The notes beneath the pieces are model-generated. The model was not told where the DNA came from. It did no database searches and saw only the letters and a list, made by a program, of their open reading frames with translations. Below are positions 21,313 through 31,900 of a stretch of DNA of 37,947 nt, piece after piece (positions within the stretch are counted from its first letter, which is position 1; each line of letters begins with the position of its first letter). The stretch is from a virus: positions 1 through 37,947 of the IMG/VR virus record IMGVR_UViG_3300042534_000477. One strand, written 5' to 3'. Position numbers and translations under genes: made by a program.

Positions 21313-21788
21313 TACTCGTCCTCGGCGTCTTCGTCCTCGCCTTCATCGTCGTCGGTCGCGTCCGGGATCGTGGACAGCGCGGAGCCCAGGCGCGCGGCAA
21401 GGCGCGCGATCCGCACCTCGGGGTCTTGGGTCTGGCCGTCGCTGACGACTTCAAGGATCTGCGTCTTGCCTACGCCGATCCTGTCGAGGATGGAGTTGGC
21501 GGCGGCTACGCGGGCGCCCGGCTGGGCTTCCTTGTCTCCGGCGACCTCGGCGAGCGCCTTGACTGCGATGTTTCTGACTCCGCGCAGTTTGCCCCGGACT
21601 TCCTTGCTGATCTCGGCGCTGCGCCGGTCAACCTCAGCCTTGACGCGCGGATCGACCATAGCGCGATCGACGCCGCGCTCCGAGAGGCCCGAGAAGACCG
21701 CGGCCTGTTTGCGGGTCATGCCGTTGGCGATGGCTTCGCAGAGCAGAAGGCGGCGCTTGGTCAGGGTGGTGTCATGGGCGACCGTCAT
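21312..21788 (-). CDS. Terminase small subunit (158 aa)
   Basis: Directly precedes the large subunit with a one-base overlap. The N-terminal 50 residues form a helix-turn-helix (LTKRRLLLCEAIANGMTRKQ, then AAVFSGLSERGVDRAMVDPR), the DNA-recognition domain of small terminases. The central part is helical and basic (RSAEISKEVRGKLRGVRNIA), fitting the oligomerisation region, and the C-terminus is strongly acidic (ATDDDEGEDEDAEDE). Length is typical. It should recognise the packaging start and regulate the motor. The start overlaps the glycosyltransferase stop. Confidence 0.8.
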   Translation of the reverse strand: MTVAHDTTLTKRRLLLCEAIANGMTRKQAAVFSGLSERGVDRAMVDPRVKAEVDRRSAEISKEVRGKLRGVRNIAVKALAEVAGDKEAQPGARVAAANSILDRIGVGKTQILEVVSDGQTQDPEVRIARLAARLGSALSTIPDATDDDEGEDEDAEDE

Positions 21789-22642
21789 AGGGGCCTCGGC
21801 TTGCGGTGTTCGGGGGAGAGGATCATCGGCACGGTCTTAGGCCAGTCGATCTTGTGGTGGATGCGGTAGCTTGGTGACCGTGGGTCTCCTAACTCTCCGA
21901 TTGAAACCGAAGATGGTTGCACCATCACGGTGTAGAACGACTTCGCATAGGTGCCGCTATCGAGGTAAATGTCGGTAAGTCCGCCGCTTTGGGCTTGGGT
22001 GGCTTGTTGATTTAGTTGTGCAGCCATGACGGTTAGCATGATGCCGCCAGTAGCGCCGTGGCTGACGTAGGTGTTTACGTCGTCGTTTAGTATGCCCCGA
22101 AACAAGAACCGACGATCGGCCCTGCAGAAAAACGAGTTCATGGCCTTTCGTCTGGCTGTGTTGTCGGCCGATCCCCCAATATGGTCTCCGCCTTGAGAGA
22201 AGGCCACACAGAGGGCGCCAGACGTGTCAAGGAACGACAGAAACAGGTCGCAGATGCTATCGAACGTTCGCCTAACCCCTGCAACGCAGTAGTTTCCGGC
22301 TGAGTCGAACCGCAGATAGAACCCGCTGTAATCGTCGTCAAGCTCCAGAAAGTACGTCAGCCCGAGCCGCTCGGCGAGGTCATGGCAGAAGTTGCGCGCG
22401 TAGATGACCGAGCGCCGGTCGTTGAAGTTGTTCATCTCGTCGAAGGTCGGCGCGATGGCCGCCTTACTGAACGTGACCACCTGATCGCCATAGTTGGCGC
22501 GGTACTGGTCGCCCGCCTTGTCTTCGTCGTCGATGACGATGTAGATGCGGCCCGTGTAGCCGGCTTTGCGAAGGCTCGCATAGGTCTTGACGTTGTCGGG
22601 TCTGCCGTGGGTCAAGATGAAGCAGGCGAAGTCATCACGCAT
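21785..22642 (-). CDS. TAGT-like glycosyltransferase (285 aa)
   Basis: The N-terminus CFILTHGRPDNVKTYASLRK, then IYIVIDDEDKAGDQYRANYG, TFDEMNNFNDRR, YARNFCHDLAERLGLTYF and LELDDDYSGF, fits a GT-A fold enzyme of the kind found in phages and named TET-associated glycosyltransferases. DDED (38-41) and DDD (102-104) would bind metal and the nucleotide sugar. Family members are thought to glycosylate modified bases in phage DNA; no TET-type oxygenase is seen in this window, so the acceptor may differ. Base composition is visibly more AT-rich than in the neighbours, especially 21880-22340, suggesting later acquisition. The start at 22642 overlaps the ParB-like gene by 8 bases. Confidence 0.65.
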   Translation of the reverse strand: MRDDFACFILTHGRPDNVKTYASLRKAGYTGRIYIVIDDEDKAGDQYRANYGDQVVTFSKAAIAPTFDEMNNFNDRRSVIYARNFCHDLAERLGLTYFLELDDDYSGFYLRFDSAGNYCVAGVRRTFDSICDLFLSFLDTSGALCVAFSQGGDHIGGSADNTARRKAMNSFFCRADRRFLFRGILNDDVNTYVSHGATGGIMLTVMAAQLNQQATQAQSGGLTDIYLDSGTYAKSFYTVMVQPSSVSIGELGDPRSPSYRIHHKIDWPKTVPMILSPEHRKPRPL

Positions 22643-23537
22643 CGGAGGCCCCTGCGGCTGCGGCGCGCTCGCTGTCGGCCAGGGCCCCCAGCCGCTCGGT
22701 GAGGTGAACGAAGCCGTTTTCGATGGCCTTGTCGAAGTCAATGATCACGAGCGCCGACCGCTCGAATAGGTCTTGCACCTCCGCGGGCTGGTGGCAGTAG
22801 AGTTCGGCGATGTTCCGATAGTTGAAGACGGTGTGGCGCCGGGCCGCGGCGCGAAGGAAGGCGGCAAGGTCGGGCGCGAGACCCGCGGAGTCGATGTCCC
22901 GGATCAGGGCTGCCGTCTTCGCTTCGCCGTAGCAGTCGCCGAGGTCGGGTGCGTTGCCCTTCGGGGTGTAGATCGGCGCCTTGACCTTCTTGGTGTAGGT
23001 GTCGGAGAGGGCGGCCGGCTTCTCGGGCTCCACGTTGACAGTCGGACCCGCGGCGCCCTTCGACTCGGGGGTGACGATCTCGGCCTTTGGCGCCGGGCCG
23101 GTGTTGATGGGGTCGGGCCCGATCTCGCCACCATCGTCGAGGCCGTCGATCAGGCGGCTCAAGTCGTCGTCGCTGAACCCCAAGCCCGAGAGGTCGAACG
23201 CCTCGGCGTCAAGCTCCCGAAGCACCTCGGCCAACAGCGGCGAATCCCAGTCGGCCAGCTCGCCGAGCTTGTTGTCGGCCAGGGCGAGGGCGCGCGCCTG
23301 CGCGGGGTCGAGGTCCATGTAGCGCACGAGCACCTTGTCAAGCCCCAGGCGCTGCGAGGCTGCATAGCGGGTGTGGCCTGCGATGATCACGCCATCGGCC
23401 CGGCGGACGATGATCGGCGACGAGAAGCCGAACCGCTTGATCGAGCCTGCGACTTCGTCGATGGCCTCCGCGTTCTTGCGGGGGTTCCGGTCCCACGGCT
23501 TGATCTCGCTGATCTCAACCCATTCTGCGTCTGCCAC
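22635..23537 (-). CDS. ParB-like nuclease domain protein (300 aa)
   Basis: The N-terminal 100 residues are a ParB/Srx-type domain: IKPWDRNPRKN (12-22), IKRFGFSSPIIV, and IIAGHTRYAA with the GHTR motif (54-57) that in relatives binds CTP or acts in nuclease or DNA-binding roles. After a Pro-rich linker the C-terminal part has IYTPKGNAPDLGDCYGEAKT, AAARRHTVFNYRNIAELYCH and LVIIDFDKAIENGFVHL, a conserved-looking second domain I cannot name. Such genes often lie beside phage DNA-modification or terminase genes. The GTG start follows a GGGGGCGGA stretch. It is the first gene of the long late operon in this window. Confidence 0.75.
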   Translation of the reverse strand: MADAEWVEISEIKPWDRNPRKNAEAIDEVAGSIKRFGFSSPIIVRRADGVIIAGHTRYAASQRLGLDKVLVRYMDLDPAQARALALADNKLGELADWDSPLLAEVLRELDAEAFDLSGLGFSDDDLSRLIDGLDDGGEIGPDPINTGPAPKAEIVTPESKGAAGPTVNVEPEKPAALSDTYTKKVKAPIYTPKGNAPDLGDCYGEAKTAALIRDIDSAGLAPDLAAFLRAAARRHTVFNYRNIAELYCHQPAEVQDLFERSALVIIDFDKAIENGFVHLTERLGALADSERAAAAGASDA

Positions 23538-23616: not shown

Positions 23617-24051
23617 CTACGCCACCGCCTCAAGCGGCCCACAAGGCCCCTGAGCGACCCAGGCGCCGGCACGCGGCCCCAGTTCCTCAGTGGTCACCGG
23701 AGCCGCGATCGACCCGTACAGCTCGGCCACCGCTCCAGCCCACATCGCCGACGTCGAGCCGCTGATCGCCCCGCGCGCCTGCGACAGCAGCGCCACAGTC
23801 CGCCGCCCGCCCCGGACATTCAGCCGATCGCTCGACAGCGCAGCCACGGGCGCAACCGACGACGGGCGGCCCGCGCCGTGGGGCTCAGGCAGCGAGGGCA
23901 CGACGCCCCGATCATTCAACGCAGAGGCCAGGACCAGATCGATCAGGTCGCCGACACCGGCGTCAGGGTCGCCCTCGCGCAGCCACCCGAGCAGGGCGAC
24001 CGCTTGGCGGCGTGTGGTGGCGGATTGGTAGATCGTCGTTGTCGTCGGCAT
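23617..24051 (-). CDS. Hypothetical protein behind its own promoter (144 aa)
   Basis: Not recognised. The N-terminus MPTTTTIYQSATTRRQAVAL, then LGWLREGDPDAGVGDLIDLV, suggests two helices; the rest is Ala/Gly-rich with a predicted helix (AMWAGAVAELYGSIAAPV). Strong points are the promoter at 24103-24075, a CGGAG site before the ATG and a leader of about 17 bases. It lies beside the palindrome array and is read away from it, the classic position of a regulator that could bind those sites, although no helix-turn-helix is obvious. It may be the first gene of the leftward transcript, 79 bases before the ParB-like gene. Confidence 0.65.
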   Translation of the reverse strand: MPTTTTIYQSATTRRQAVALLGWLREGDPDAGVGDLIDLVLASALNDRGVVPSLPEPHGAGRPSSVAPVAALSSDRLNVRGGRRTVALLSQARGAISGSTSAMWAGAVAELYGSIAAPVTTEELGPRAGAWVAQGPCGPLEAVA

Positions 24052-24074: not shown

Positions 24075-24103
24075 AGTCTACCACGTTCGGCGACGGCGCG
24101 CAA
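24075..24103 (-). promoter_or_regulatory. Promoter P5 (CTATTGCGC-N17-TAGACT, leftward)
   Basis: On the minus strand TTGCGC (24103-24098), preceded by CTA, and TAGACT (24080-24075) are separated by exactly 17 bases. Predicted start near 24068, 17 bases before the ATG at 24051. It is one of five copies of the same element and probably drives the 144-aa gene and possibly the late operon. Confidence 0.75.
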
Positions 24104-24147: not shown

Positions 24148-24196
24148 GGTTACAAGATCTGCCCCGAAAGTTACAAAGGCTTGTAACCGTGTAACC
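24148..24196. repeat. Palindromic sites, cluster 1
   Basis: A half site GGTTACAAG (24148-24156) is followed by the full palindrome AGTTACAA-AGGC-TTGTAACC (24169-24188) and a further half site GTGTAACC (24189-24196). The palindrome has 8-base arms and a 4-base centre, like the three other copies. Confidence 0.8.
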
Positions 24197-24304
24197 GTAG
24201 CTTCATCCTGCCCTTTCACCGAATCCGCAGAAACCGGGTTACAAGGGTTTGTAACCGTGAGAAGGTAGCTTCATCCTGCGCTTTCGCCCGATTTCGCCCT
24301 CGGG
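24171..24304. repeat. Degenerate tandem repeat, two units of 68 and 66 bases
   Basis: Unit 1 (24171-24238) and unit 2 (24239-24304) both begin TTACAA, contain TTGTAACCGTG and then the exact shared block GTAGCTTCATCCTG (24197-24210 and 24265-24278, 68 bases apart). A third unit starts with TTACAA at 24305 and breaks off. The shared non-palindromic block shows that more than the protein site was duplicated. Confidence 0.75.
24237..24256. repeat. Palindromic site 2
   Basis: Perfect 20-base palindrome GGTTACAA-GGGT-TTGTAACC. A lone half site GGTTACAA follows at 24303-24310, near the third partial unit. Confidence 0.85.
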
Positions 24305-24412
24305 TTACAACTATGCACAACAGCATGGTCACTCCTGGGGGAAGGAAAAACAAGAAGAGAGGGATCTGGCTCTTCTGATTTTTTCCGCGCGCGTAGAGGG
24401 TATATGTGTCTT

Positions 24413-24420
24413 TTGTAACC
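24413..24420. repeat. Half site in the AT-rich stretch
   Basis: TTGTAACC follows TATATGTGTCTT in the most AT-rich part of the region. It is a single arm of the palindromes found on either side. Confidence 0.6.
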
Positions 24421-24466
24421 TGATCTGATTTATTGATGAGAATAGTGTGATGCAGGGCATTCTCAC

Positions 24467-24495
24467 GGTTACAAGCCGTTGTAACCCTTGTAACC
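24467..24495. repeat. Palindromic site 3 with extra arm
   Basis: Perfect palindrome GGTTACAA-GCCG-TTGTAACC (24467-24486) followed at once by a further arm TTGTAACC (24488-24495). Three arms within 29 bases suggest cooperative binding. Confidence 0.85.
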
Positions 24496-24540
24496 CGCGA
24501 GACCCGAACCGCATCAGCAGAGCATTCTCAGCGACCCCAA

Positions 24541-24559
24541 GGGTACAAGGGCTGTAACC
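24541..24559. repeat. Palindromic site 4, degenerate
   Basis: GGGTACAA-GGGC-TGTAACC is one base shorter than the other palindromes and less exact. It lies about 45 bases upstream of the possible TTGACG promoter for the primase operon. Confidence 0.55.
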
Positions 24560-24603: not shown

Positions 24604-24632
24604 TTGACGCGCCATCGGGCTCGGGCTACCTC
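24604..24632 (+). promoter_or_regulatory. Possible promoter for the replication operon (TTGACG-N17-TACCTC)
   Basis: TTGACG (24604-24609) and TACCTC (24627-24632) are 17 bases apart. The -35 is near the sigma70 consensus but the -10 lacks the final T. It has no CTATTGCGC element. It is the best candidate between the palindromes and the primase start at 24749. Confidence 0.35.
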
Positions 24633-24660
24633 TGCGGAGCCTGCTGACCTGGGCGCCCCG

Positions 24661-24695
24661 CCTGCCCTCTCCGGCTGATCCCCGGAGAGGGCAGG
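24661..24695. other. Strong 14-bp hairpin upstream of the primase gene
   Basis: CCTGCCCTCTCCGG (24661-24674) is exactly complementary to CCGGAGAGGGCAGG (24682-24695) across a 7-base loop CTGATCC. No T run follows on either strand, so a simple terminator is unlikely. It may be a leader structure of the primase mRNA or a single-strand primase or initiation signal of the origin. Confidence 0.7.
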
Positions 24696-24748
24696 GACAA
24701 CGGGAACCCGGCTGCCACAGCGGGCGATCCTCGCACCCAGGTCACACG

Positions 24749-25693
24749 ATGCCACACCACGACGGGCTACCCTGCCCCTCGGCGACCTACGCCGCTGCGC
24801 GCCGCTCAAGCCACGGCCGCGCCCACCCGACGACATGGCGCCAGCTCCGGCGCGCCCTCACCCGCCACGATCGGGCCCGCACCGAGAAGCTCGACGCCCC
24901 ATGCTGGGCGCCGCACGTCGCCACCGATGGCCGCCGCTTGGCCTCGGCGATCGTGTCGGTTCACGCCCTCGTCCTCGACTTCGACGACGGGGCCGACGTT
25001 CCGGCCGCGATGGGGCTGTTCCCTGATCGCGAGCGGTGCGCCTACAGCACCTACAGCGCCACGCCCGAGGCCCCGCGGTGCCGCCTCGTGCTGCCCCTGG
25101 CCGCGCCCGTTGCCGGCCACATCTGGGCCGCTGCGATGCGCCTGATCCTGCGCGACGTGGGGCAGGATGCCAACGCCGCCGATCCGAAGTGCATCGACCC
25201 CTCGCGCCTCTACCTCCTGCCATGCCGCGGGCCGGTCGAAGTCGCAGACTACGCCCCCGGCGACCTGCTCGACCTCTCCGAGCACGTCGCCCGCGCCGAG
25301 TACGATGCCGAGCTTGCCCGCCTCCACCAAGAGCGCCAACGGGCACAGAGCGCCGCCCGCGCCGTTGCCGCGCGCCAGTGGGCGGCCCGCGCTCCCGACG
25401 ATGCCGCCCGCGCCGAGCGCGCCGGTCGCGCTGCCCTGCGATCCGACCCCGATGCCCGAGCCCGCGCCGCTGCCGACCTCCGCGCTAAGGTGGTCGAGCG
25501 CGACGGCGCCCGCGTGGCGATCGGGCTGCCCTGCCCCGGCTGCGGTCGGCCGGCTGCGTGGTTCTTGATCGACCCTCGCGCCGCGTGGAGCGCCCGTTGC
25601 AACCACGTCAAGACCTGCGGCTGGCACGGCCAGATCGCCGACCTGCTCGCCACTCACGGGCTACAGCCCCAAGCCTACGGGGCCTTCCGATGA
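24749..25693 (+). CDS. AEP-type primase with C-terminal zinc ribbon (314 aa)
   Basis: Shows the three motifs of archaeo-eukaryotic primases: LVLDFDD (D77, D79), the basic strand APRCRLVLPL (R110, R112) and CIDPSRLYLLP (D150, R153). The central part is a long charged helix. The C-terminus carries a Cys4 zinc ribbon (C262, C265, C284, C290) in PCPGCGRP and CNHVKTCGWHG. In most primases the zinc element is elsewhere, so this order is uncommon. It would lay down RNA or DNA primers for phage replication. ATG at 24749 has AGGT 6 bases upstream. The stop overlaps the DUF927 gene (ATGA), placing both in one complex or pathway. Confidence 0.78.
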   Translation: MPHHDGLPCPSATYAAARRSSHGRAHPTTWRQLRRALTRHDRARTEKLDAPCWAPHVATDGRRLASAIVSVHALVLDFDDGADVPAAMGLFPDRERCAYSTYSATPEAPRCRLVLPLAAPVAGHIWAAAMRLILRDVGQDANAADPKCIDPSRLYLLPCRGPVEVADYAPGDLLDLSEHVARAEYDAELARLHQERQRAQSAARAVAARQWAARAPDDAARAERAGRAALRSDPDARARAAADLRAKVVERDGARVAIGLPCPGCGRPAAWFLIDPRAAWSARCNHVKTCGWHGQIADLLATHGLQPQAYGAFR

Positions 25694-27888
25694 CCGCTCA
25701 GCCCGCCGACCGCACCCTCAGCCTCGCCCCGCCCGCCGATTGGGGGATGGAGACCACCGCCGCCCGCGCCCGCCGGGAGCGCGCCGAGGCCATCTTGGCC
25801 CCGCTCATTGAGCACGCCGCGAACGAGAACACCGAGCCCGGCGCCCGTCTCGGCGCATGGGCCAAGCTCAAGTCATCGGCCTGCGATCTCGCCGAACTCC
25901 TCCACGTCGCCGGCTCCGACGACCTGCGCGACCTGCTCGCCGTCGCCGGCTCGATCCGGGGCGCGACCGCCGACTATCGGGCCCTCAGCGCCGCGATGTC
26001 CCGCGTCGAGAAGGACGTCGCCAAGGCCCAGGCCGCCGCTGCCCGCGCCTGGGCCGCAGAGCAAGCCCGCACCGGGCCGCCGCGCCTGTCTGCCCGTGGC
26101 GCCGCTGATCGTCTGCTCGAACTCGTACCCGGCGCCGCAGTCGGGGGCGGCTGGGAACTCTCCGACAACGGCGTGATCCACGTCAGCCTCGACGACGAAG
26201 GCATCCCCTCCGACAAAGTCAAGGTAGCCGCCACCCGCCCGATCTTGCTCGCCGGCCGCGCGGTGGACGTAGACTCCGGCGAGTACAGCGTCGAAGTCGC
26301 CTGGATCAACGAAGACGGCCACGTCGGCCGCGCATGGACGCCTCGGGCTGACGTGATGGACGGCCGCAAGCTGATCGCCCTGGCCTCTCAGGGCGCCCCG
26401 GTCTGCTCGCCGACCGCCTCCGACCTGTCCCGCTTCCTCGACTGGTGTGACAGCACTTGGGCTGGCCGGCTGCCCCAGCGCGCCATCGCCGTCCGAATGG
26501 GCCACCTTCGGGGCGGCTTCCTCCGCGGTCCCGGCTGGCATCCCGCACCCGTCGCCCCCATCGCCGAGCCCACCGAAGGGGCCGAGCCCGCGCCGCCCGC
26601 GCCGGTCCCTCCGCCGGTCCACCTGACCCCACCCGGCGGCTTCGAGGCCCTTGCCGCCAGCATCCACAGCCACGGCACCTACGAGGGCTGGCTCGACGCC
26701 TGGGCCGTCACCACCGGCCGCCCCGTCGCCCGCCTCGCCGTCTATGCGTCGCTGGCCTCGGCGATCCTGCCCTGGACAACCGATCGCGGGTGCGTGCTCG
26801 ACCTCTGGGGCGAGACCAGCATCGGCAAGACCACGGCCCTCAACCTCGCCGCCTCGGTCTGGGCCTCGCCCCGGTCCTACGTCGGCAAGTGGGCCTCCAC
26901 CATGACCTATCGCGAGCGGTCGGCCGCCGCGCTGTCTTGCCTGCCGCTGTTACTCGACGACACCCGCCAGATCCCGCCGAAGGAACGCGAGCAGATCGGC
27001 CAGACGGTCTACCAGCTCGCCGACGGCCAAGGCAAGGGCCGCGGCTTCGTCTTCGGGGCACAGGTTCGGGCCGTTTGGTGCTCCTTCACGATCTCCACAG
27101 GTGAAAGCCCCTTGTTGGGCACCTCTCAAGACGAAGGCGCCCGCGCCCGCTGTCTCTCGGTTGAGGGCGCGCCGTTCGAGGCTCGCTCCGAAGCCGTCAC
27201 CGTGAACCGCGTGACCGAGCGCCATTACGGGCACCTCGGCGCCCGGTTCATCGACGCCATCCTGACCCGAGGCCGCCCCTCCATCGCCGCGCTCTGGGAG
27301 GCTGCCGATGCCGTATGGGCCGACCGCCTCGGCGACTATGGCGGCCTGTCCGCCCGCTTGGCCGCGCACCTCGCCGCCATCGAAGTCGCCGCGCTCATTG
27401 CCCATCAAGACTGCGGGCTGCCCCTCGCCGACCCCGCCGAAGTCGAGGCCGTCATGGGTGTCGCTGCGACCGCTGCGATCCGGTCGGGCCAAGACGCAGA
27501 CAAGCCCCTCGCCGCGCTCCGCTCCGTGATCTCGCGTGCCGTCGCCCAACAGGTCGCCTTCTACGGCCGCCACGCGCTCGACCGCGAAGGCGAGCCCCGT
27601 GATCCCGCCCTGGGCTGGCTCGGCCAATGGCGCCCCGACGGGGCAACCGACCGCGACCGCTGGCCCTACCTCGCCGTCTCGGCCCACGTCCTGCGCCGCT
27701 GGCTCGCCGAAGACCGCTATGACGGGCCCGGCGTGGTCGCTCAGTGGGCTGCCCGCGGTTGGCTGGCCTTGCCGCCATCCGGCAAAGGCCATGACAAGCC
27801 CGTCAAGGTCAACGGCCAAAGTATGCGCTGCGTCTGCCTTCTGCGCGATGCCGTTGAAGCTGCGATGTCCGACGGGAGCGCCGAATGA
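25690..27888 (+). CDS. DUF927-type replication ATPase/helicase (732 aa)
   Basis: The central domain matches the DUF927 pattern: CVLDLWGETSIGKTTALNLA with a Walker A around G374-T382, KWASTMTYRERSAAALSCLP, LLLDDTRQIPPKEREQIGQT with Walker B near D423/D424, and YQLADGQGKGRGF. DUF927 proteins are helicase-like ATPases encoded with phage or plasmid primases. The N-terminal 190 residues are helical and charged, then a domain with strands (VIHVSLDDEGIP, YSVEVAWINEDG) and a Pro-rich linker (about 290-310) precede the ATPase; a C-terminal 200-residue helical part follows. The start at 25690 overlaps the primase stop and the end overlaps the SF2 helicase start, so the three are made together. Confidence 0.8.
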   Translation: MTAQPADRTLSLAPPADWGMETTAARARRERAEAILAPLIEHAANENTEPGARLGAWAKLKSSACDLAELLHVAGSDDLRDLLAVAGSIRGATADYRALSAAMSRVEKDVAKAQAAAARAWAAEQARTGPPRLSARGAADRLLELVPGAAVGGGWELSDNGVIHVSLDDEGIPSDKVKVAATRPILLAGRAVDVDSGEYSVEVAWINEDGHVGRAWTPRADVMDGRKLIALASQGAPVCSPTASDLSRFLDWCDSTWAGRLPQRAIAVRMGHLRGGFLRGPGWHPAPVAPIAEPTEGAEPAPPAPVPPPVHLTPPGGFEALAASIHSHGTYEGWLDAWAVTTGRPVARLAVYASLASAILPWTTDRGCVLDLWGETSIGKTTALNLAASVWASPRSYVGKWASTMTYRERSAAALSCLPLLLDDTRQIPPKEREQIGQTVYQLADGQGKGRGFVFGAQVRAVWCSFTISTGESPLLGTSQDEGARARCLSVEGAPFEARSEAVTVNRVTERHYGHLGARFIDAILTRGRPSIAALWEAADAVWADRLGDYGGLSARLAAHLAAIEVAALIAHQDCGLPLADPAEVEAVMGVAATAAIRSGQDADKPLAALRSVISRAVAQQVAFYGRHALDREGEPRDPALGWLGQWRPDGATDRDRWPYLAVSAHVLRRWLAEDRYDGPGVVAQWAARGWLALPPSGKGHDKPVKVNGQSMRCVCLLRDAVEAAMSDGSAE

Positions 27889-29795
27889 ACGCCCCGGCCG
27901 CCCCCTCGACCACGTCGCCCGGCCTCACTCCCACCGAGGCCGCCGAGCTACGCCGCAAGGCCCGTGCCTGCCTTGACCTCGCCGCGAGCAGCACCCATCC
28001 GGCCGAGCGAGACAGCGCGACGACCGCCGCCGACCGCCTAAGCTCCCGCCTGATCTCCGCGGGCCTGCCCGGCATCAAGGGCACACCCTCCGAGGCCGCC
28101 AGGGCCGCCCACAAGGCCACAGGACGGCGCCGCGCCCCGAAGCCGGCCGCAGACCCGCCCCCGCCAGAAGCCGGCGTCCTGGCCCGCGTGGAGCGCCCAC
28201 AGGCCACCCCAGCGCCACGGCACCGCCCGCGCCCTGGACAGCCCATCCCCGCCGACCCGCCGCGCAACCTGCGCCGCTGGCAAGCCGAAGCCATGCCGAT
28301 CGTCCGGCGCGCCTTGGGGCGGATGGTCACCCCGGATGGCGAAGCTGTCGCCCGACCTCTGCGCCCGGTGGTGTCGGCCTTCATGGGCGCAGGTAAGTCC
28401 GTGTTTCTGGCCGAACTTGCTCGGCTCTGTGCAGTCAAGGGGTTTACCGTCGTCGTCGCCACCCCACGCCAAAAGCTCGTGAGGCAGCTCGGCGAGACCA
28501 TTCAGGCGTTTGTGCCCGACACCGGCCTCGTGATGTCGGGCTATCGCCAGCCTGCCCAGGTCATCGTCGCTTGCTTCTCATCCCTTGAGCAGACCCGCGC
28601 GATCCTCGCCGAGACCGGCCGCCGCTGCGACCTGCTGATCGTCGATGAGTGCCACGGCTCCGAGGCCCCGAACCATCAACGGTCGATGCTTGCCCTTGAG
28701 CCCCGATGGATGGTCGGCGTCACCGCAACCCCATTCCGAAGCGATGAGGGCGAGCGCCTAAGCCTATGGGATGAGGCCGTTTATCGCTACAGCTTCTCGG
28801 ATGGCCTGCGCGACGGCGTCGTGACCTCGATCACCCCGATCCACTGGTCAGACGACTGCATCCCACACCTGCCCGACCCGAAGACCGACCCCGAAGCCCT
28901 GCCTTTGGAGGACGGCGCCCCGGCGGTCGACGACGCCCTGATCGCCATGTTCAAGCGCCACGGGCTACCCGGTCCTACCCTCACCAATGCCGTGAGCATC
29001 GCCGAGGCCGACTCTTTCGCGCAGCGCCTGACCCGCTACGGATGGACCGCCGCGAGTATCCACAGCCGCTTGACCTGGGCCGAGCAGGCCGACCGGATCG
29101 AAGCCCTCCGAACCGGAGCGATCGACATCTTGGTTCACGTCTCCATGCTCTCCGAAGGCGCCGACTTCCCTTGGCTCGCCGCGCTGGCCTTCCGTCGCCG
29201 CGTGGGCGCAAAGGTGCGCCTCGTGCAAGAAGCGGGCCGAGTCTGCCGCACCCATCCCGGCAAGGCAACGGGCTACATCTTCGACCCGATGGCCCTGCTC
29301 GCCGCCCACGGACTACAGCACCCCGAAGCCCTCGGCGCCGCGATCGACGAAGCGGACCCCGAAGACGGCGAAGACGAAGCCAAGCGCCGCGACCCTGACG
29401 AACCCGAAGAGGCGGGCCCGCCGCCGCGCGCCGTTCTGCTCGCCAGGGTGGACGCCTGGGCGCTGTCTCTGATCGAGGGCCTGAGCCAGACCGGCCGCCT
29501 TGACGCCAAGAACCGCGAGCACCTGCCCTGGATGATGCGCGAGCTGCGCAAGGGTGGCCGAGTCCCGCCGACGGGTAAGCAATGGCAAGCGATCGGCCGA
29601 GCCATCGCGAGCAACGGGTTCCGGCGCTACCCCTGCGCCGCGACTCGTGACGCCATCAAGCGCATCGTCGGCCAAAAGGCGCTCACCAAGCCCCAAGCCG
29701 CCGTCTTGCTGACCGCGCTCGGATGGGTTGCCCAGAACGTCTCGGTCTTCGCCCCGTGGCCCGCCGACCTGCCGATCCCGCCAGCGCCTGCCTAA
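27885..29795 (+). CDS. SF2 DNA helicase (636 aa)
   Basis: Superfamily 2 helicase of the DEAD/H-ResIII type. Walker A FMGAGKS (166-172), Walker B VDECH (253-257), motif III VTATPFRSDE (279-288), HVSMLSEGADFPWLAAL and motif VI QEAGRVCR (448-455) are all intact. The first 60 residues (EAAELRRKARACLDLAASST, with HPAERDSATTAADRLSSRL) resemble a DUF2786-like helical module. The C-terminal 140 residues are acidic then helical (LPWMMRELRKGGRVPPTGKQ). Likely unwinds DNA in replication, recombination or restart. The start overlaps the DUF927 stop (ATGA). No nuclease motif is seen, so it is not itself a type I/III restriction subunit. Confidence 0.85.
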   Translation: MNAPAAPSTTSPGLTPTEAAELRRKARACLDLAASSTHPAERDSATTAADRLSSRLISAGLPGIKGTPSEAARAAHKATGRRRAPKPAADPPPPEAGVLARVERPQATPAPRHRPRPGQPIPADPPRNLRRWQAEAMPIVRRALGRMVTPDGEAVARPLRPVVSAFMGAGKSVFLAELARLCAVKGFTVVVATPRQKLVRQLGETIQAFVPDTGLVMSGYRQPAQVIVACFSSLEQTRAILAETGRRCDLLIVDECHGSEAPNHQRSMLALEPRWMVGVTATPFRSDEGERLSLWDEAVYRYSFSDGLRDGVVTSITPIHWSDDCIPHLPDPKTDPEALPLEDGAPAVDDALIAMFKRHGLPGPTLTNAVSIAEADSFAQRLTRYGWTAASIHSRLTWAEQADRIEALRTGAIDILVHVSMLSEGADFPWLAALAFRRRVGAKVRLVQEAGRVCRTHPGKATGYIFDPMALLAAHGLQHPEALGAAIDEADPEDGEDEAKRRDPDEPEEAGPPPRAVLLARVDAWALSLIEGLSQTGRLDAKNREHLPWMMRELRKGGRVPPTGKQWQAIGRAIASNGFRRYPCAATRDAIKRIVGQKALTKPQAAVLLTALGWVAQNVSVFAPWPADLPIPPAPA

Positions 29796-30688: not shown

Positions 30689-31900
30689 ATGACCCCCGAA
30701 CCCCGCTGGACCTCTCCCCTCACCGGCTCCGAAGTCTACGAAGCCGACGCCCGCGCCGTTGCCGCCACCCTCCCCGACGGCATCGCCTCGGCGGCCATCC
30801 TCGACGGCCCCTATGGCATGGGCAAGGCGGCCTGGGACCGCGTGCCCCGCGGCGGGTCGCTGCTCGACCTCTACCGCGACCACCTCGCCGACGTGGGGCG
30901 GGTCTGCGCGCCGTCGGCGTCGCTCTACGTCTGGAACACCGCCGAGGGCTGGGCCGAACTCCATCCGGCGATCCTGGCGGCGGGATGGACATTCCGCAGC
31001 CTGATTGTCTGGGACAAGATGACACCCCCAAGTCTTATCAGCTGGAAGTCTGCTTGCTCGTGGCCGGATTCGCACGAAGTCTGCGGCTTCTACCAGCGCG
31101 AGGCGTGGGCCCCAAACACCAGCGCCGGGCAGCAGATCGGCTATGCCGCCGGGCGCGACGACCGCAACTGGGTTCGCCCGTGGCTCGCCGCCGAGTGGGC
31201 CGCGGCCGGGCTCAAGATGCGCGACGCCGATCGGGCCCTCGGGACCAACGGCATGGCCGGGCACTACTTCCAAGCGTCCCAATGGTCCCTGCCGACGTGG
31301 GACGCCTTCAAGCGCCTCGCCGAGCACGCCGCCGAGCATGGGCCGCCCCGCGCGGTCCCGTACCTGACCCTTGAGCGGTTTGCTGGGGCTGACGGCCTCG
31401 CCGCCACCTACGACCACCTCCGCGCCGAGTACGACCACCTCCGCGCCACCTACGACTACCTCCGCGCCGAGTACGAGGCCAGCCGCGCGGTTTTTACCAT
31501 GCCCGAGCCGGTTGGTACCGTCTGGCAGGTCAGCACAGGCGCACTAAGCAGAGAGACGCTGCGCTCTGACAAGATGACGCCCAACATCCTCAAAAGCGAC
31601 GGACTCAAGCGCGAAGCCCTCCACCCCTGCCAGAAGCCCCTCGCCTTCGCCGAGCGCATGATCCGCGCTTCAACCCGGCCCGGTGACGTCGTTTGGGTGC
31701 CCTTCGGCGGCACCTTGCGGGAGGTGGTCGCCGCCGAGCATATGGCCCGGCGCGACCCGGCCGAGGCCCGGCGCGTCATCGCCTGCGAACTGAACGCCGA
31801 CGGCGCAGACTACATCGGCCCGGCGCTGGCCCAAGCGGAGGGGCGGTCCCTGCTCGACGTGGCCCCGGCGCAGGTCTCACTCTTTGGAGCATCACGATGA
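30689..31900 (+). CDS. DNA N4/N6 methyltransferase (403 aa)
   Basis: Amino-methyltransferase of the beta class (catalytic motif first). LDGPYGMG (D39-Y42) replaces the usual DPPY. The cofactor part near the C-terminus reads HPCQKPLAFAERMIRAST then GDVVWVPFGGT, where the normal DPF.GSGT is altered. Between them, three 21-base DNA repeats (31409-31471) encode a heptad helix YDHLRAE-YDHLRAT-YDYLRAE, a spacer also seen in other phage methylases. The enzyme could protect phage DNA from host restriction. The target base and site cannot be read from the sequence. It has a GGAG site and follows SSB by 18 bases; no restriction partner is visible. Confidence 0.75.
   Translation: MTPEPRWTSPLTGSEVYEADARAVAATLPDGIASAAILDGPYGMGKAAWDRVPRGGSLLDLYRDHLADVGRVCAPSASLYVWNTAEGWAELHPAILAAGWTFRSLIVWDKMTPPSLISWKSACSWPDSHEVCGFYQREAWAPNTSAGQQIGYAAGRDDRNWVRPWLAAEWAAAGLKMRDADRALGTNGMAGHYFQASQWSLPTWDAFKRLAEHAAEHGPPRAVPYLTLERFAGADGLAATYDHLRAEYDHLRATYDYLRAEYEASRAVFTMPEPVGTVWQVSTGALSRETLRSDKMTPNILKSDGLKREALHPCQKPLAFAERMIRASTRPGDVVWVPFGGTLREVVAAEHMARRDPAEARRVIACELNADGADYIGPALAQAEGRSLLDVAPAQVSLFGASR
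31409..31471 (+). repeat. Three 21-base tandem repeats in the methyltransferase gene
   Basis: Units at 31409-31429, 31430-31450 and 31451-31471 differ at a few bases and each encodes one heptad (Y-D-x-L-R-A-x). Being in frame, copy number can change without breaking the gene and would alter helix length. Confidence 0.85.

Follow-up and report, generated by a model that had tools for sequence, protein, structure and literature searches.

A probable iteron replication origin beside the primase and DUF927 helicase genes of a tailed phage

Background

A viral contig of 37,947 bases (the window, by which we mean the whole stretch of DNA that was analysed) carries an array of palindromes and half sites at positions 24148-24559, in a gap between divergent transcripts. 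A preliminary description of this locus left an iteron origin and a master operator as readings of the array, which raises the question as to what the array does and which protein is likely to bind it.

Organisation of the palindrome array

The four palindromes reported earlier were all located, as were five extra half sites where at least five had been counted (Table 1), and the gap that holds them is indeed without genes and AT-richer, with about 51% GC versus 69%. The 4-base centre had been described as constant in three sites, which is wrong because the centres AGGC, GGGT and GCCG all differ. Palindrome 4 has a centre one base shorter and one mismatch relative to the other three, and in the nearest relative the corresponding site is perfect except for the shorter centre; most iterons are paired as inverted repeats with a centre of 3-4 bases.

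Table 1 Features of the array, its flanks and the adjoining replication module, with positions in the window
Feature	Position	Strand	Sequence, composition or basis
Candidate leftward promoter	24075-24103	-	TTGCGC-N17-TAGACT; by eye
Left iteron set	24148-24310		Half site 24148, palindromes 1 and 2, half sites 24189 and 24303
Extra half sites (five)	24148; 24189-24196; 24303; 24413; 24488	+; -; +; -; -	
Palindrome 1	24169-24188		AGTTACAA-AGGC-TTGTAACC
Palindrome 2	24237-24256		GGTTACAA-GGGT-TTGTAACC
AT-rich core, presumed melting region	24311-24450		GC content
Imperfect hairpin in AT-rich core	24346-24383		Arms 24346-24359 and 24370-24383; inverted repeat and alignment
Right iteron set	24413-24559		Half site 24413, palindrome 3, half site 24488, palindrome 4
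Palindrome 3	24467-24486		GGTTACAA-GCCG-TTGTAACC
Palindrome 4 (imperfect, weaker)	24541-24559		GGGTACAAGGGCTGTAACC
Candidate replication-operon promoter	24604-24632	+	TTGACG-N17-TACCTC; by eye and alignment
Conserved structured mRNA leader, ending at primase ATG	24640-24751	+	Stem CCTGCCCTCTCCGG/CCGGAGAGGGCAGG with covariation
Primase, 314 aa, probably archaeo-eukaryotic type with C-terminal Zn motif	24749-25693	+	
DUF927 AAA+ helicase, SaPIbov1 Rep relative, proposed initiator	25690-27888	+	True start 25690
C-terminal winged-helix domain of DUF927 protein (predicted DNA-binding, residues about 596-732)	about 27475-27885	+	
ResIII/SNF2-type helicase, third gene of the module	27885-29795	+	

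Allowing up to three mismatches the palindrome was found three times, compared with 0.01 expected from shuffled sequence. All 11 copies of GGTTACA/TGTAACC in the 37,947 bases lie within 24148-24559, and GGTTACA is more densely clustered than any other 7-mer of the record (11 per 450 bases, maximum of 6 in shuffles). Outside the array GGTTAC was seen 0 times where 3-4 copies were expected, numbers too small for a claim of avoidance. The iterons form two sets on either side of an AT-rich region, a layout always seen in PICI origins (PMC6092414), and 24401-24450 within this region is the lowest-GC stretch of 50 bases in the record (30%).

Genome setting

Terminase, portal, head and tail genes are present leftward of the array in this IMG/VR virus contig, so the element is a phage and not a PICI, a satellite without its own full virion genes. 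The rightward module encodes the primase, the DUF927 helicase, a ResIII/SNF2 helicase, SSB and a methyltransferase. There is no gap 3' of the DUF927 gene since the following gene starts at 27885 and overlaps its stop codon (27888), and the array is found 5' of the primase gene rather than directly 3' of rep as in the PICI/SaPI arrangement. No DNA similarity to named phages was found; one relative was located in a Sphingomonadaceae MAG contig, a weak hint that the host is perhaps Sphingomonadaceae-like.

Cumulative GC skew had been proposed as a check on the origin. A flip is present at 22-24 kb, however it is uninformative and was rejected as origin evidence because the gene strand switches at the same place, with the coding strand C-rich at third positions on both sides of the flip; the sign of the skew is the opposite of the usual leading-strand bias.

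As a separate observation, a TET-associated glycosyltransferase (PF20691) adjoins a ParB-like protein (21785-23537 for the two together) and a DNA methyltransferase is encoded at 30689-31900. These are probable DNA hypermodification genes, present in some relatives such as L033 and missing from others.

The array in close relatives

In L004 and L010, with primases 89% identical to that of the window, the array is kept site by site with the exception of half site 24189, and in the nearest relative the iteron bases are 94% conserved versus 76% for the spacers (Fisher P 4e-5). Seven further relatives, with six distinct ori sequences because two are identical, also carry an array in the corresponding gap. 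Primase identity is 68-70% for L005, L006/L008 and L041, and the gap in these and in L033-L036 aligns or matches in position. These sister phages carry mostly GGTCGC/GCGACC or GGTCGT with few GGTTAC, and GGTCGC is found in 5-14 copies versus about 1 expected. The change from GGTTACA to GGTCGCG corresponds to three transitions, in register, and the C-terminal domain of the DUF927 protein in the GGTCGC phages is about 70% identical to that of the window.

Every relative encodes the primase, and all contigs that extend far enough also encode the DUF927 protein and the ResIII helicase, these three being the only constant companions of the array. A search beside DUF927 genes in related phages had been advised, and the array accompanies the primase/DUF927 module in every relative. 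The 144-aa protein (23617-24051), put forward earlier as a possible binder, was found among the relatives only in L010 and is an unlikely candidate because most relatives lack it. The ParB-like protein was found only in L010 and L033; some relative contigs are short leftward, and its absence is safe for L005, L034 and L035, in which terminase genes lie further left.

The hairpin within the core (AAGAAGAG/CTCTTCT) is retained by relatives despite different sequence, and may be either a bidirectional terminator or an origin hairpin. Just left of the AT minimum, CCGCGCGCGTA at 24386-24397 is invariant in the window, L004, L005 and L006, and nearly invariant in L041 too.

The DUF927 protein as putative initiator

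The DUF927 protein matches PF06048 (E 3e-34) and, among solved structures, those of SaPIbov1 Rep (8tch, E 6e-33) and of the SCCmec helicase Cch (5dgk); the similarity reaches into the C-terminal domain. It is through its C-terminal domain that SaPI Rep recognises the iterons next to rep (PMC7581432). AlphaFold modelling gave a pLDDT of 35 for the whole protein and a moderate model for the C-terminal domain (pLDDT 66, pTM 0.66), and this moderate model has structural matches in the winged helices at the C-termini of 8tch (Z 7.0) and 5dgk (Z 6.2) and in the oriT-binding winged helix 5vfx of pCW3 (Z 8.9). The sole Pfam match of the domain, below cut-off, is HTH_56, 'Cch helix turn helix'.

Iterons beside distant helicase genes

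An iteron cluster was found in the gap of about 300 bases 3' of the DUF927 gene in 9 of 11 distant DUF927 phages and satellites. The word is GGTTACA in MT837305 and MT835739 (phrog_8841, the PHROG of the window protein), GGTTACC in THSA-485A, GGTTAC[CG] in AC844P1, GGTAACA in Jekyll and phiRg507T2_3, GTTCCC in PT1028 and AH14b and GGTGAAAC in Epona; the clusters in Jekyll, AC844P1 and MT837305 are small and distinct by the short word GTTAC, not by the 7-mer scan. The tested gap 3' of DUF927 contained no iterons in the other two elements, MT835519 and Pae_U10. Across these distant elements a DUF927 or VapE/D5 helicase always accompanies the iterons, while the primases differ.

Viral contigs were scanned for three tandem copies of TGTAACC, and this gave at least 120 stretches. 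Eighty loci were analysed, in which 15 large ORFs have their 3' end within about 110 bases of the array. Thirteen of these 15 encode DUF927 (L110, L068, L062), VapE (L054, L088, L073, L093, L115, L118, L125), D5/DUF5906 (L058, L111) or a Toprim primase-helicase (L116); of the remaining two, one matches nothing but an uncharacterised family (L051) and the other is an integrase (L067). Neither DUF927, VapE nor DUF5906 was among the 25 most frequent of 35 families in 40 control ORFs distant from arrays. The word is not exclusive to a single helicase family, since TGTAACC arrays also occur next to terminase genes (L070, L119) and, in L020, within a lambda-O-like gene. An exact palindrome scan of viral contigs gave 18 stretches, several of them in dense arrays, compared with 4 stretches and none in arrays for a reversed control word.

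Two individual loci were recorded alongside these scans. In L020 (3918-4050), on an unrelated 56 kb viral contig, GGTTACAA-N4-TTGTAACC palindromes lie in the lambda-O-like initiator gene, which is followed by primase/helicase. A low-GC viral contig of 40.7 kb has two dense and similar GGTTACA arrays (L009:1065-1452 and L022:10783-11153), one adjoining a D5-type helicase gene and the other adjoining structural genes.

We tentatively suggest that GGTTACA(A) may be a recurrent origin word across phage and satellite initiator helicase families (DUF927, VapE, D5/DUF5906 and perhaps lambda-O-like), which would be recognised through a single type of C-terminal winged helix and could shift by a few transitions (GGTTACA to GGTCGCG) within one phage family. 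If so, the series from GGTTACA to GGTCGCG would be a natural record of the evolution of origin specificity. The array in any case provides a short DNA word with which origins and initiators of many uncultured phages could be traced, and the sister phages with their in-register shift make initiator/origin co-evolution directly testable. No phage origin with a GGTTACA iteron word was recognised in the open-access papers searched, and no earlier description of GGTTACA(A) beside DUF927 in MT837305 or MT835739 was found in the open-access literature searched.

Candidate origin and alternative readings

Of the two readings first proposed for the array our analysis favours the origin, and we put at about 0.8 the probability that 24148-24559 is the replication origin of the phage, made up of iterons around an AT-rich core and bound by the DUF927 helicase. 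This is favoured because the array and the primase/DUF927 module stay together throughout the relatives, because DUF927 phages generally keep iteron clusters beside the DUF927 gene and because SaPIbov1 Rep, a relative of the DUF927 protein, recognises the iterons of its own origin; the position of the candidate promoters, outside the array, further favours an origin over an operator. Weighing against it are the location 5' of the primase rather than 3' of rep, the use of GGTCGC by sister phages whose C-terminal domain is about 70% identical, the moderate confidence of the domain model, the two DUF927 elements lacking iterons in the tested gap and the TGTAACC arrays found next to other genes. 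We infer a course of binding, melting, replication start and two-hexamer loading in which the DUF927 protein, as a self-loading helicase like SaPIbov1 Rep, would bind the GGTTACAA iterons via its C-terminal winged helix. Binding from both iteron sets would give two DUF927 hexamers; melting of the AT-rich core and outward unwinding would follow, exposing strands for priming by the neighbouring primase.

A master operator, on which a repressor or activator would bind the palindromes and switch the divergent operons, is unlikely. In its favour, palindromes of 19-20 bases fit binding by a dimer, transcripts diverge from the gap and both candidate promoters are about 44 bases beyond the array, the right one with TTGAC and GCTAC invariant across the aligned relatives; a strict promoter consensus scan detected neither. 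However, no site overlaps either candidate promoter, L004 tolerates a 21-base insertion between the last palindrome and the right promoter, no conserved regulator gene adjoins the array (the 144-aa protein being confined to L010) and unrelated phages also have the motif 3' of their helicase genes.

Less likely again is a variant of the origin reading in which a different protein binds the iterons, be it the primase, the ResIII helicase or a host factor, and DUF927 is only loaded as the helicase. The primase and ResIII helicase are also retained with the array in the family, however the partner that stays constant beside distant iterons is the DUF927 or VapE/D5 helicase while primases vary, SaPI Rep itself binds its iterons (PMC7581432) and the record contains no DnaA-box consensus. 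Two other origin types were rejected, a DnaA-dependent oriC as TTWTNCACA is absent from the record, and a lambda-type origin as the array is non-coding and no O-like match was found among the neighbouring proteins scanned.

That the array is a centromere-like site serving the ParB-like protein (22635-23537) is very improbable: a ParB_N protein does lie one gene off and the repeats are palindromic, but L005, L034 and L035 keep the array without ParB beside it, no parS match within 3 mismatches was found and no ParA was recognised among the scanned proteins. Phage ParB-like proteins are often not partition proteins. Operator and centromere are both disfavoured because the sites lie outside the two candidate promoters, at a distance from the right one that varies, and because neither a regulator nor ParB is retained.

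The mRNA leader of the primase has a very stable fold (z -4.5), and its domain closed by UGACCUGGG/CCCAGGUCA includes the likely ribosome-binding AGGU immediately before the ATG. Six pairs of the inner 14-bp hairpin are changed on both sides among seven distinct relatives, and the leader is without a match in Rfam. It is possibly a translational switch of the replication operon.

Comparison with known systems

Lambda-type origins share with the array inverted-repeat iterons and an AT-rich region, and L020 resembles them in having N4 palindromes inside a lambda-O-like gene; in the window, by contrast, no O-like protein was recognised and the array is non-coding. The putative origins of SCCmec Cch/Cch2 are alike in having an initiator helicase, of the same class or a parallel one, whose C-terminal domain binds short repeats (PMC7581432), but the Cch2 iteron is AAGTG, in few copies and as direct repeats (PMC7581432), and the Cch2 helicase is of D5 type, not DUF927. 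The gut phages MT837305 and MT835739 have the same GGTTACA(A) word beside a DUF927 gene, however their helicase is about 26% identical and their array is 3' of the gene and tandem, not palindromic.

The pri-rep-ori region of SaPIbov1 and other PICIs likewise combines a self-loading DUF927 helicase with a C-terminal winged helix, a neighbouring primase and an AT-rich core flanked by two sets of short iterons. The window differs in that it belongs to a tailed phage with head, portal, tail and terminase genes, in that the ori is 5' of the primase whereas there it is 3' of rep, in its iteron (GGTTACAA compared with AGTTCCC in PT1028) and in that most iterons are paired as N3-N4 palindromes. A two-set iteron origin of PICI type is known, and what is unusual here is that the array lies 5' of the primase and that its iterons are paired into palindromes; the SaPI-type system would be found here in a full tailed phage, and apparently in many others.
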